From positions 1-45,373 of the forward strand of contig DASYVT010000022.1 in assembly GCA_035936835.1 (NCBI GenBank): a stretch of 45,373 bases of DNA, read 5' to 3'. This document shows positions 32,311 to 37,025 of this stretch, one piece after another (position 1 is the stretch's first letter; each line of letters begins with the position of its first letter). The DNA is from Candidatus Methylomirabilota bacterium (GTDB taxonomy: Bacteria; Methylomirabilota; Methylomirabilia; Rokubacteriales; CSP1-6). A program made the translations under genes and the position numbers. A model generated the notes under the pieces. The model worked only from the letters and a program-made list of their open reading frames with translations, was not told the origin of the DNA and did not search any database.

Positions 32311-32344
32311 TCAGCGTAGCTCGGCGGGCCACGGCCCGCGCAGG

Positions 32345-32424
32345 GCTCCGCCAAGTCGGGGCTCCGCCAAGTCGGGGCTCCGCCAAGTCGGGGCTCCGCC
32401 AAGTCGGGACTCCGCCAAGTCGGG
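32345..32424. repeat. Five tandem 16-base repeats upstream of hpnN
   Basis: Unit GCTCCGCCAAGTCGGG, four perfect copies (32345-32408), a fifth with A for the first G (32409-32424), and a broken sixth. The array fills much of the 155-base gap between ino1 and hpnN and stops 8 bases before an extended -10. Copy number is likely to vary between strains. Confidence 0.92.
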
Positions 32425-32431
32425 ACTCCGA

Positions 32432-32440
32432 TGGTAGACT
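32432..32440 (+). promoter_or_regulatory. Extended -10 element before hpnN
   Basis: TGGTAGACT fits TGnTAnnnT, 26 bases before the hpnN ATG. Its -35 region falls inside the 16-base tandem repeats, so repeat number could affect expression. Confidence 0.4.
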
Positions 32441-32465: not shown

Positions 32466-35204
32466 ATGATCGCCATCTCGAGAACGGGACGTCTGCTGCG
32501 CCGCCTGGTCCGGCTCTCCTGCCGGCGGCCGCTCGTTACGACGCTTCTCTCGCTCATCCTGGCCGTCGCCGGCGTCACCTACACGCTCCACGCGCTCAGC
32601 TTCAAGACCTCCGGCCGAGATCTCCTGCCCAAGAAAGCCGGCTACATCGTGCGCTACAACCAGTACGCGCGGGAGTTCGGCGAGCTCGAGGACATCGTCA
32701 TCGTCATCGAGGCGCGCACCTTCGAGGCAGCCAAGGACTACGCCGCGCGCCTCGTTCAGGAGCTTCGCGCCTCGCCGCTCAAGTTTCCGCGGGTGGCGTA
32801 CCGCGTGGATCCGAAGCGCTTCGAAGGCCGTCATCTCCTCTATCTCCCGGAGAAGCAGCTCAAGGAGATCCGCGACAGGATCTTCGACCACCAGGAGTTC
32901 ATGGAGAGCTTCGCCGGCGACCCAAGCCTGGCGCGGCTGATCGAGGGCGCCAACGCGGCAATGGCCTCGGCTTTCGTCTCGAACCTGTTCGACCTCGGGA
33001 TCGGCCAGGGCAGCGGGGAGGACACGCGCTTCCTGCGCCTGGTGCTGGACCAGATCGCCGGGCGTCTCGAGCACCCGACGCCCTACCGCTCGCCGTGGGG
33101 CACGCTCTTCTCCTTGAGCGAGCGCCCCGCCGACGCTGGCTATTTCCTCTCGGACGACAAGAGCCTGCTCTTCGTGCTCGTGGAGACGCCGCAGAGCGAG
33201 AAGGGCAGCTTCATGAGCGACCGTCGGGCCATCGAGATCATCCGCCGCGTCATCGCGGACCTCAAGCCGGCCTTCCCCACCGTGCAGGCTGGAGTGACCG
33301 GCGGCCCGACCCTGTCCAACGACGAGATGACGGCGGCCTTCCACGACAGCAGCGTCGCGACCGTGCTCGCCTTCGGGCTGACGCTCCTCGTGATGCTGCT
33401 GGCCTTCTGGCGGGTGGGCAAGCCCCTCCTGATGCTGGCCGTGCTGGCGGTGACGCTCGCCTGGTCCATGGGGATCATCACGCTGACGGTCGGACACCTG
33501 ACTATCTTCTCGGTCATGTTCATCTCCATCGTCATCGGCATCGGCATCGACTACGGCATCTACTTCCTGTTCCGCTACGAGGAGGAGATCTTCCTCGGGC
33601 GCAACCTCAAGGAGGCGCTCGAGCTGACCGCCGCACGGGCGGGGCCCGGCATGCTCATCGGCGCGCTGACGGCCGGTGGCACCTTCTACGTCCTCATGCT
33701 GACCGATTTCCGCGGCATCCAGGAGCTGGGCTTCATCGCCGGCACCGCCATCCTGATGGCGTGGCTCGGCATGATGACGCTGTTCCCCGCGCTGCTTGTC
33801 GTGGTCGACCGCCGCCACGGCGACCGGCCCCGCAACCAGGCGCCGCGGGCGCACGCGCTCGAGCGCATCAACGTTCCTGTGCTCGACCGCCTGACGCGCT
33901 ACCCCAAGGCGGTGCTCACGATCGCCGGGGTCGCGACGGCAGCCTCGCTCGGGGCCCTTCCGTACGTAGGCTTCGACTACAACCTGCTGAACCTCCAGCC
34001 CAAGCGTACGGAGTCGGTGATCTGGGAGAAGCGCATCCTCGCCAACACCGGGCGCTCGGGCTTCAACGGCCTGGCCTCGGCCACGACTCTCGAGGAGCTC
34101 CGCCGGAAGCAGGAGGCCTTCGAGAACCTCTCGTCGGTGTCCGAGGTGGACTCGGTTCTCCGCGTCATCCCCGATAACCAGAAGGAGAAGATCGCGATCG
34201 TGCGGACCTTCGCGCCTATCGTCGCGCCGGTGCGCGTCGGCCGCTCGAGCCCGGTTGATCTCGACCGGCTGACGCGGGCGCTCGGTGAGCTCACGCGACG
34301 GCTGGACATCTTCGCCGCGGAGGCGGGGGACAAGCTGCCGGATGACCTCAAGCAGCTGCGGACCCGGACGATGGCCCTGATCACGGCGCTCCAGTCGACC
34401 AGCCGCGAGGTCTCGGAGCCCGCGCTGACCCACCTGCAGTCCCAGCTCTACGGCGACTTCGTCACCAACTTCTTCGATCTGCAGCGCAACCTGAACCCTC
34501 GACAGATCGGTCTCGCGGACGTGCCCGACGAGCTCCGGCGCAAGTTCATCGGCAAGCGCGGCGACTTCCTGCTGCAGATCCACCCCAAGCTGGACATCTG
34601 GGAGCGCGAGGGTGCGCGGCAGTTCGTGCGCGAGCTCAGATCGGTGGACCCGGACGTGACGGGGGCGCCCATCATCACCTACGAGGCCATCGGCTACATG
34701 GAGCGGGCGTACTTCCAGGGCACCGCGTACGCGTTCATCCTCGTGGGGCTGCTCTCCGCGCTGATGATCCGCCGGGGGAAGGAAACCCTGCTGGCGCTCC
34801 TCCCGCTGGTGCTGGCGCTCCTCTGGACGATCGGCCTGATGCGCGTCTTCCACCTGCAGTTCACCATGGCCAATGTGTGGGGCCTGCCGCTCATCGTCGG
34901 CGCGTCAGCCGAGTTCGGGCTCAACGTGATCGTCCGCTACTTCGAGGGGCGCGACCACGGCGGCCCGCTAATCGCGCGCAGCACGATCATGGCGGTGGCG
35001 CTCAACGGCGTGACCACGATGGTCGGCTTCGGCAGCCTGATGATCGCCCGGCATCAGGGCATCTTCGGGCTGGGTCTCCTGCTGACGATCGGAGCCTTCT
35101 GTGCCCTGCTCGCCTCGCTGGTGGTCCTGCCGGTCATCCTTCGATTGATCGCCCGGCCCGCCGCGCACGCGGCGCCAACAGTCGCCCGCTCCTCGGCCGC
35201 TTAG
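32466..35204 (+). CDS. hpnN: Hopanoid-associated RND transporter HpnN (MMPL family)
   Basis: RND/MMPL exporter of 912 residues that moves hopanoids to the outer membrane. One helix at residues ~22-42 is followed by a periplasmic domain, then five or so helices (from ~295) with FMSDRRAIE before them and IGIGIDYGIYFLFRYEEE within them. The second half repeats this plan, with a helix near 480, a second large domain, and helices from ~755 including GASAEFGLNVIVRY. The ATG at 32466 lacks a clear Shine-Dalgarno. It is the last gene of the rightward hopanoid set and runs toward the palindrome at 35213. Confidence 0.92.
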   Translation: MIAISRTGRLLRRLVRLSCRRPLVTTLLSLILAVAGVTYTLHALSFKTSGRDLLPKKAGYIVRYNQYAREFGELEDIVIVIEARTFEAAKDYAARLVQELRASPLKFPRVAYRVDPKRFEGRHLLYLPEKQLKEIRDRIFDHQEFMESFAGDPSLARLIEGANAAMASAFVSNLFDLGIGQGSGEDTRFLRLVLDQIAGRLEHPTPYRSPWGTLFSLSERPADAGYFLSDDKSLLFVLVETPQSEKGSFMSDRRAIEIIRRVIADLKPAFPTVQAGVTGGPTLSNDEMTAAFHDSSVATVLAFGLTLLVMLLAFWRVGKPLLMLAVLAVTLAWSMGIITLTVGHLTIFSVMFISIVIGIGIDYGIYFLFRYEEEIFLGRNLKEALELTAARAGPGMLIGALTAGGTFYVLMLTDFRGIQELGFIAGTAILMAWLGMMTLFPALLVVVDRRHGDRPRNQAPRAHALERINVPVLDRLTRYPKAVLTIAGVATAASLGALPYVGFDYNLLNLQPKRTESVIWEKRILANTGRSGFNGLASATTLEELRRKQEAFENLSSVSEVDSVLRVIPDNQKEKIAIVRTFAPIVAPVRVGRSSPVDLDRLTRALGELTRRLDIFAAEAGDKLPDDLKQLRTRTMALITALQSTSREVSEPALTHLQSQLYGDFVTNFFDLQRNLNPRQIGLADVPDELRRKFIGKRGDFLLQIHPKLDIWEREGARQFVRELRSVDPDVTGAPIITYEAIGYMERAYFQGTAYAFILVGLLSALMIRRGKETLLALLPLVLALLWTIGLMRVFHLQFTMANVWGLPLIVGASAEFGLNVIVRYFEGRDHGGPLIARSTIMAVALNGVTTMVGFGSLMIARHQGIFGLGLLLTIGAFCALLASLVVLPVILRLIARPAAHAAPTVARSSAA

Positions 35205-35212
35205 CAGGGTCC

Positions 35213-35334
35213 AGGGCGCCGAGAAGGGTCCAGATTCGAGGCGGCGCCCGAAGACCGCACGCGAGGCGTACTCCTGTACGTTGAGCGTGCGGTCGAGGGC
35301 GCCAACGAAGCAGATGGGCCCTTCTCGGCGCCCT
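35213..35334. repeat. Large nested palindrome between convergent genes
   Basis: Four pairs of inverted arms nest around one centre: AGGGCGCCGAGAAGGG (35213-35228 with 35319-35334), GGCGCCC (35243-35249 with 35297-35303), GACCGCACGC (35253-35262 with 35285-35294), and CGTAC (35267-35271 with 35276-35280). All arms are exact complements. The element fills the gap between hpnN (+) and malate synthase (-). It could fold into a long hairpin on either strand and act as a two-way terminator. The layered form also suggests a dispersed repeat or a structured RNA. Confidence 0.85.
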
Positions 35335-35339
35335 GCGAG

Positions 35340-37025
35340 TTAGAAGGCGTCGGGGGCGGCTGCGATGTGTTCCAAGTCCGCGTGGGTATAGGAGCCGAGG
35401 CTCCGGAAGTCGAGCTCGGTGTAGTTCTTGATCCAGCGCATGGCGATCTTGACAGCCTTGCGGTAGCGTACTCCGGTCTCCACGTCCTTCCCCAGCGATA
35501 AGTAGAGGATGTCCTGGACCTCTTCCTTCAGGAGCCGCTTCACCATGGGAAAGTCGTGGACCTGCGACGGATCGGTCGAGTCCTTCGCGTGGTGCCGGAT
35601 GCGCTGGGCGATCTGGGCCACCGACATGCGGCCGGTGGCGAGATCCTCCATCAGCGCCGGGTGGACACCTGGCTTGCCCGCCAAGCTGTCGATACCCTTC
35701 GCGCCGCGGCCGCCGAGCCAGCCCTCGACGTACTCGATCACCATGCGCGCGTTGCGCCGCGTCCCGCCGACCGTGATCGGCCCCATGGGCACCTCGATCT
35801 TGACCGGGTAGTTGCCAACCTCGGTCATCGCCAGCGTGGGCTTCCAGCCTGAGGCGGCGAGGCGCTTGAACGGCTCCCCGGCAGTCTTCATGTGGAAGAT
35901 ATGCGCGACCCAGGCGCGGATGAAGCCCTGCTGCGCCTCCCACTCCTTGTCGGCGCGGATCGCCTCCCCCGCCACCCGGTTGACCTCGGGGTCATTGCCC
36001 GGCAGGGCCGTCGCCATGCCGCCGATGGGCACCGCCCCTCGCTTGAGGCAGATCGCCACCAGCCTCCGGAAGATATTGGCGAGGAAGGGCGTCGTCTTGA
36101 TGTCCACGCCGAAGCGGTCCGGCCAGACCGACGTCGGGTCGGCCATGACGAACTCGAAGATCGAGGCCTTGAGGTCCCAGCGCGCGGCATTGAGGCCGGC
36201 GGCGTAGGGACCGAGGGCGTAGAGCATCTCCTCCATCAGGTAGACGGCAGGCAGCGACTCGACCAGCGGGATGCCGCGGATGACCGCGTCCGTGAGAGCC
36301 GGCAGATGCCGGCGGCTCGCGTCGAAGACATCGCGATACCAGGCGACCTCCTCCACGGTCTCGACCTTGGGAAGATAGAAGTAGATACCCTGCCCGCGCC
36401 CCGCCTGGGCGCGCCCCGCGTAGTAGAGCGTCAGCGCCGTGCCGAGGATGGCCGCCGGCACGGGCCGGCCGTCCACGGTGACGTCGTGCTCGTCGAGGTG
36501 GAGCCCGCGCTCGCGGTGCATGAAGAACGGCAGCTCGCCGGGCGCGATGCGGTACTCCCTGCCGCGCGCCGTGTCTGTGTAGGCCAGCTCGCGATTGACC
36601 GCCATCAGACGGTTCTGCGCCGCCCGCACCGTGTCTACTAGCCGGTGTCCGCCGGAATCCTCGTCGTCGTCGAGGTCGCCCTCGGCGCGCTCGCCCTCGG
36701 GACCGGGGTTGAGCGCGTTGATGAACATGCTCGTGATCGAGCAGGGCCCGGAAATCTCGATGCCGGGGCGCCTGAGGTCTTCGGGCACCGGCGGCACCTT
36801 CCAGTCGCCCGTCGTGGCGGCGGAAACCGGCTGAGGCCCGGGCAGCGTCCCCTGCTCGAGCGCGCGCCTGAGCACCGCGTCGCGCTGGCGACGGAGCGCA
36901 TGCACGCGCGGCGTGAAGTCGTCGTGCACCGCGCAGAGGTACTCGCAGAAGTCCGCGGTGAAGAGCTGGGCCGCGCCCTCCACCGGGGCGAAGCGGACAC
37001 GGGTCGTCGCGCTCGTCGGGGTCAT
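35340..37025 (-). CDS. Malate synthase A-like protein
   Basis: Condenses acetyl-CoA and glyoxylate to malate in the glyoxylate shunt, if canonical. The 561-residue protein aligns along the malate synthase A plan: INALNPG near residue 105, RGLHLDE (catalytic arginine loop), YFYLPKVET, LVESLPA with a metal-binding glutamate, LNAARWD with the second ligand, PIGGMATALPG, and the C-terminal domain EVGNYPVKIEV. Two parts differ: the usual MADFEDSxSPTW is replaced by an acidic DLDDDEDSGG, and the first region reads ISGPC. No isocitrate lyase is in the window. ATG 37025 is 46 bases after the molybdopterin gene stop. Confidence 0.8.
   Translation of the reverse strand: MTPTSATTRVRFAPVEGAAQLFTADFCEYLCAVHDDFTPRVHALRRQRDAVLRRALEQGTLPGPQPVSAATTGDWKVPPVPEDLRRPGIEISGPCSITSMFINALNPGPEGERAEGDLDDDEDSGGHRLVDTVRAAQNRLMAVNRELAYTDTARGREYRIAPGELPFFMHRERGLHLDEHDVTVDGRPVPAAILGTALTLYYAGRAQAGRGQGIYFYLPKVETVEEVAWYRDVFDASRRHLPALTDAVIRGIPLVESLPAVYLMEEMLYALGPYAAGLNAARWDLKASIFEFVMADPTSVWPDRFGVDIKTTPFLANIFRRLVAICLKRGAVPIGGMATALPGNDPEVNRVAGEAIRADKEWEAQQGFIRAWVAHIFHMKTAGEPFKRLAASGWKPTLAMTEVGNYPVKIEVPMGPITVGGTRRNARMVIEYVEGWLGGRGAKGIDSLAGKPGVHPALMEDLATGRMSVAQIAQRIRHHAKDSTDPSQVHDFPMVKRLLKEEVQDILYLSLGKDVETGVRYRKAVKIAMRWIKNYTELDFRSLGSYTHADLEHIAAAPDAF

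Follow-up and report, generated by a model that had tools for sequence, protein, structure and literature searches.

A dispersed palindrome with a conserved fold at gene ends of Rokubacteriales and other bacteria: a candidate gene-less insertion element

The window analysed here, by which we mean the whole stretch of 45,373 nucleotides (positions 1 to 45,373 of contig DASYVT010000022.1, from a Candidatus Methylomirabilota bacterium), carries a long palindrome between an MMPL-family transporter gene (32466-35204, + strand) and a malate synthase gene (35340-37025, - strand), which converge on it. Nested inverted arms between convergent genes had been predicted at 35213-35334, and both the arms and the setting are borne out. 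The arms reach slightly past these limits, and the insert, at 35205-35339, takes up the entire gap between the TAG of the transporter gene and the TAA of malate synthase. Elsewhere in the window, just upstream of the MMPL gene (32325-32436), lies a tandem 16-bp unit, CGGGGCTCCGCCAAGT, in five overlapping copies. The parts of the palindrome and its borders are as follows.

35202..35204, + strand: TAG stop codon of the MMPL-family gene, left edge (sequence, gene calls)
35205..35339, + strand as the more stable folding strand: whole insert between both convergent stop codons (sequence, fold of both strands)
35212..35232, + strand: left (inner, A2) arm CAGGGCGCCGAGAAGGGTCCA, pairing with 35315-35334 (covarying helices 1-2, own-genome alignment)
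35230..35239, + strand: left core CCAGATtCGA (family CCAGATGCGA), near invariant (own-genome alignment)
35243..35249, + strand: 5' half of the middle stem, GGCGCCC, pairing with 35297-35303 (fold, covariation)
35253..35262, + strand: 5' half of the inner stem, GACCGCACGC, an arm named in the original prediction, pairing with 35285-35294 (fold, covariation)
35263..35284, + strand: conserved tip GA-GGCGTAC-TCCT-GTACGTT-GA, with a tandem G.A mismatch and two conserved G.T pairs (fold, alignment)
35285..35294, + strand: 3' half of the inner stem, GCGTGCGGTC (fold, covariation)
35304..35317, + strand: right core AACGAAGCAGATGG, conserved (own-genome and cross-phylum alignments)
35315..35334, + strand: right (A3) arm TGGGCCCTTCTCGGCGCCCT, adjoining the malate synthase stop codon (fold, covariation, position of the right end relative to stop codons)
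35340..35342, - strand: TAA stop codon of malate synthase, right edge (sequence, gene calls)

When folded as RNA, the + strand of the palindrome forms a single, internally mismatched hairpin (-104.8 kcal/mol, z = -11.7, equalled by 0 of 200 shuffles), and the - strand folds at -90.4 kcal/mol (z = -9.1). The GA at 35313-35314 lies opposite the GA at 35233-35234 as a tandem G.A mismatch, and the T at 35236 in the left core is a substitution private to this copy. A2 and A3 are the only clear inverted ends here. The predicted lack of a T-tract is upheld for this copy, which is likewise without a terminator-like match, and a sigma-70 pattern found no promoter-like match.

The palindrome is neither single-copy nor unconserved. 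BLAST found about 40 places in its own genome (4.1 Mb, 236 contigs), the best 30 at 85-100% identity over most of the query, and a covariance model derived from 31 copies recovered these places and added about eight divergent copies; at E <= 1e-4 the family was present in 45 of 95 genomes of the phylum, in all five genomes of the genus (at least 34 matches each) and patchily outside it. These copy numbers are search matches, some of them lower bounds. Covariation among the 31 own-genome copies is strong: standard pairs occupy 96.9% of cells, double-sided changes occur in 19 of 45 pairs (shuffle mean, 8.7; 0/500), and the signal is lost when the partner is shifted by 1 to 3 columns. Both sides have changed in 9 of 17 pairs of helix 4, the inner stem. 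In this set the mismatch-bearing cores and the tip GGCGTAC/GTACGTT are nearly invariant and the stems vary. A dispersed element resembling REP or BIME sequences, as first suggested, is thus present in the broad sense of about 40 genomic copies with covarying stems.

The full element consists of arm A1, a short spacer, arm A2, a core hairpin and arm A3, the last being complementary to both A1 and A2, and measures about 125-150 bp (about 180-235 bp in long forms). An A1 arm scores at least 8 in 47 of 151 copies against 7 of 151 shuffled controls, and at least 10 in 28 copies against 0 controls; terminal inverted repeats are therefore A1/A3 in a subset of copies and A2/A3 in nearly all. Matched ends often start TAG-CAGG, TAA-CAGG or TGA-TGG, which are stop-codon triplets reading inwards, and such ends occur even where no gene runs into them; we infer that A1 and A3 are the true termini. 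Both CTAG and TA were considered as a target duplication and none was established, the ends overlapping stop codons and the flanks of empty sites being strongly diverged. Long forms carry additional modules in the left flank, tip or right flank in various combinations. Those of L033, L035, L036, L037, L038 and L039 (around 1500-1725) have interchangeable modules, with left and central module parts that are mutually complementary (CGAGACGAGGGCTGAG / CTCAGCCCTCGCCTCG). At L007, L013, L034 and L251, a left half-element lies directly upstream of a full element, an arrangement that nested insertion or slippage might produce. The copies examined are short, non-coding and without a transposase gene, and among the fetched loci there was neither an open reading frame between separated element halves nor an autonomous parent sharing the element's ends. 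Gaps of about 1 kb at two orthologous loci, considered as an ORF-bearing carrier, consist of ordinary adjacent genes.

That the element is gained and lost is shown by orthologous loci at which it is missing, reduced to a deletion footprint or turned round. Four congeners were searched for the flanks of 24 own copies, and selected sites were read out. The L016 site is empty in three congeners, L011, L018 and L024 are empty in G060, L015 is empty in G057 (6 bp between two convergent stops), and L002 is empty in G059 and G057 and occupied in G058. In G060 the empty L011 and L018 junctions are operon junctions consisting of a stop, 2 nt and a start; the L011 copy is itself orthologous between the window's genome and G059. 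Arm footprints, which are deletion remnants, occur at two G059 sites. At the malate synthase locus, only an arm remnant (CAGCCGCCTGCTAG) is present in G059, a long form in G057, a copy in opposite orientation in G090 (another genus) and a remnant in its congener G089; no comparable element is present in the other genera whose locus was read out. Orientation is also opposite in G059 at L003, L006 and L008, the first two being long forms there. In G059 the counterpart of own copy L014 is L252, and there a different palindromic repeat (GGGGTCAGGTCTTGCATT ... AATGCAAGACCTGACCCC) splits the element.

The copies are intergenic, and a stop codon often borders A3. Genes beside the copies were called with a custom codon-usage gene finder that is simple, its starts being rough and its stops exact. 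Among the 39 own copies with two neighbours, 19 are in convergent, 14 in tandem-, 4 in tandem+ and 2 in divergent contexts, and the right-hand gene is directed into the element in 33 (p = 7e-6 versus one half); the 100 cross-phylum contexts comprise 25 convergent, 45 tandem-, 22 tandem+ and 8 divergent. Across phyla, the right-hand stop codon falls 15-20 nt from GCAGATGG in 40 of 77 cases; this distance is the length of the arm, and hence the stop abuts A3, whereas the left side has no comparably sharp peak. Gaps are tight, and in compact places the purging of gene-damaging insertions might by itself leave only those that abut a stop, but the sharp one-sided peak across phyla calls for more. 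Such placement would suit a 3'-UTR element, and convergent contexts are enriched both in the window's genome (19 of 39 copies, compared with 1 of 27 gene pairs in the window) and across phyla (25 of 100, compared with 74 of 577 of the loci's own gene pairs; p = 0.002), as might be expected of a bidirectional intrinsic terminator or an mRNA 3'-end stabiliser that was multiplied by recombination and kept for insulating convergent genes. An A-tract plus a T-tract, as expected of a bidirectional terminator, is found in 67 of 120 cross-phylum copies. However, the window copy and most own copies lack a T-tract (T4 in A3 in 6 of 37 own and 69 of 120 cross-phylum copies), and L011 and L018 lie in tandem gene pairs with no space for a promoter. 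A plain terminator is disfavoured because a T-tract is missing from the window copy and because these two copies split 2-bp operon junctions; the better-folding strand is, moreover, usually antisense to the abutting gene. We therefore regard termination or stabilisation as an unlikely explanation of the family.

The + strand, defined as CCAGATGC...GCAGATGG, is the more stable one in 37 of 37 own and 111 of 117 other copies with RNA parameters, and in 37 of 37 and 109 of 117 with DNA parameters. Purines predominate where it is unpaired or mismatched: in alignment A2 it shows 224 G.A against 18 T.C and 229 G.T against 80 A.C, counts that are partly affected by misaligned inner stems. The mRNA of the abutting gene usually comes from the opposite strand and so is not the strand that folds better. 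This preference points to either folded single-stranded DNA or a separate transcript, two forms that these data do not separate; selection on a folded single strand is supported. A small structured or cis-regulatory RNA made from the + strand, of the kind supposed in 2009 by the annotators of a Geobacter subfamily, would account for the G.U pairs and tandem G.A mismatches conserved on one strand and for the conserved terminal motif, and related sequences in G. metallireducens have indeed been listed as predicted short RNA elements (PMC2700814). Against an RNA stand the usual antisense position of the + strand, the lack of a promoter-like match (sigma-70 only) at the window copy and the polymorphic presence among close relatives. 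Rfam gave no meaningful match for the window or variant copies, the weak matches to plant and animal microRNAs being due to chance. We consider an RNA function improbable.

Orientation relative to replication was assessed in two Geobacter genomes, with origin and terminus called from 20 sampled stretches in each. In Geobacter sp. AOG1 (one 3.68-Mb scaffold; about 79 matches), the 78 placed copies are grouped into long blocks that share a strand, and GC skew suggests an origin near 0.9 Mb and a terminus near 2.7 Mb. The + strand is opposite to the leading strand in 62 of 78 copies, compared with 64.6% co-oriented genes (Fisher p = 0.009), an excess confined to one replichore (28:3). The second genome gave 30 of 35 copies versus 152 of 251 genes (p = 0.002). 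This orientation is not general, since contigs with two copies in the window's genome (C69, C146, C189, C231) are mostly discordant. Chromosome-scale strand blocks of the element, beyond gene co-orientation, can be seen in Geobacter on G095 C1 and G098 C1, C9, C11 and C12.

A degenerate pattern scan with one genome per species found more than 100 stretches among the matches listed. Named records with matches include Rokubacteria/Methylomirabilota, Deltaproteobacteria including Geobacter, Nitrospirae, Myxococcales, Firmicutes, Selenomonadales, Peptococcaceae, Gemmatimonadetes, Gallionella and others; many matches come from metagenome bins, and isolated odd phyla may therefore be contamination. 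One match, L090, was set aside as it looks like a chance match in coding sequence. In a 70-sequence cross-phylum alignment the outer arms differ greatly in sequence yet pair, with 262 double-change cells against 92 in shuffles (outer helices 1 and 2 only). Invariance of the cores, including the left core, is no evidence in this set because the search pattern fixed them, whereas their invariance within the window's genome is evidence. A viral collection of 2.9 million contigs contained one matching stretch (L206 6174-6301), possibly prophage or host flank, and a distant-mode search of plasmid and phage collections with a single 152-nt consensus gave no match.

Given the many copies, the covarying fold, the placement at gene ends, the stronger folding of one strand and the gain and loss at orthologous sites, the palindrome probably belongs to a dispersed insertion element that is gene-less and non-autonomous, behaves like a MITE or REP and is putatively mobilised in trans as a folded strand. 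The A2-core-A3 strand would be extruded as a hairpin in single-stranded form and would serve as the substrate of a putative recombinase or transposase supplied in trans, and insertions would persist mainly at gene ends, where coding sequence and the neighbouring operon are spared. Several points tell against mobility: no transposase, ORF-bearing full-length relative or target-site duplication was established; empty sites could in part be precise losses; some copies (L011) are orthologous between species, so that vertical inheritance combined with gene conversion may account for some of the pattern; inverted, long and short forms could originate in place at a given locus; and the opposite strand also folds strongly. 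More tentatively, the family may form a cross-phylum class of mobile DNA whose folded single strand is recognised by a putative recombinase or replication-linked factor and which would be inserted beside stop codons in a fixed orientation and, in Geobacter, be oriented relative to the replication fork. Movement by a RAYT (Y1) transposase as a REP/BIME element, which the many intergenic palindromic copies might suggest, is very improbable, since Y1_Tnp (PF01797) matched control genomes but neither the window's genome (G000, 99.94% complete) nor copy-rich AOG1 (G095, 79 matches), a divergent and unrecognised Y1 enzyme being possible.

Part of the family has been seen before. The G. metallireducens genome paper of 2009 reports 24 predicted short RNA elements with a central palindrome, GRCGTAGCGCTGCTACGCC, in three other species too, and its list includes Gmet_R1005 = GSU0160.1 (PMC2700814). 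This palindrome is the exact reverse complement of the tip GGCGTAGCAGCGCTACGTC of the Geobacter copies L099 and L165, and those elements are intergenic and multicopy, as here; the tip of the window copy (GGCGTAC-TCCT-GTACGTT) has diverged from it. The 2009 list gives an RNA reading, and other phyla, the three arms, covariation, stop-codon placement and gain or loss do not appear to figure in it. Literature searches, both topical and with the sequence letters themselves, turned up the Geobacter papers and a review of MITEs but no account of the family at large. The family fills intergenic space in Rokubacteria, Geobacter and many uncultured or little-studied bacteria, essentially unannotated, and it illustrates that structure-preserving covariation among genomic copies need not imply a functional RNA.

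REP/BIME sequences mobilised by RAYT share with this family the trait of dispersed extragenic palindromes near gene ends, but the unit here is longer, single and three-armed (about 125-150 bp), and two copy-rich genomes have no Y1 transposase, so that membership of REP/RAYT, as opposed to a broad likeness, does not hold. Integron attC sites are imperfect palindromes that follow a gene's stop codon and have a preferred folding strand. The present element resembles them in these respects, but its copies lie outside cassette arrays and its ends, TAG-CAGG and TGA-TGG, differ from the attC consensus. Bacterial MITEs are likewise short, non-coding and intergenic, with inverted ends and a stable fold; Chunjie of Geobacter uraniireducens, compared here by description only, is one of 178-235 bp, and one copy sits inside an operon (PMC10969869). 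In contrast to MITEs, the present family has a core conserved across phyla, and neither a target-site duplication nor a parent insertion sequence was established for it; insertion polymorphism between relatives is present. The family is apparently mobile DNA of a type that has hardly been described; it keeps its shape while its letters change, and it offers a testable case of gene-less DNA spreading without a known transposase under rules that comprise three arms, stop-codon placement and, in Geobacter, replication orientation.
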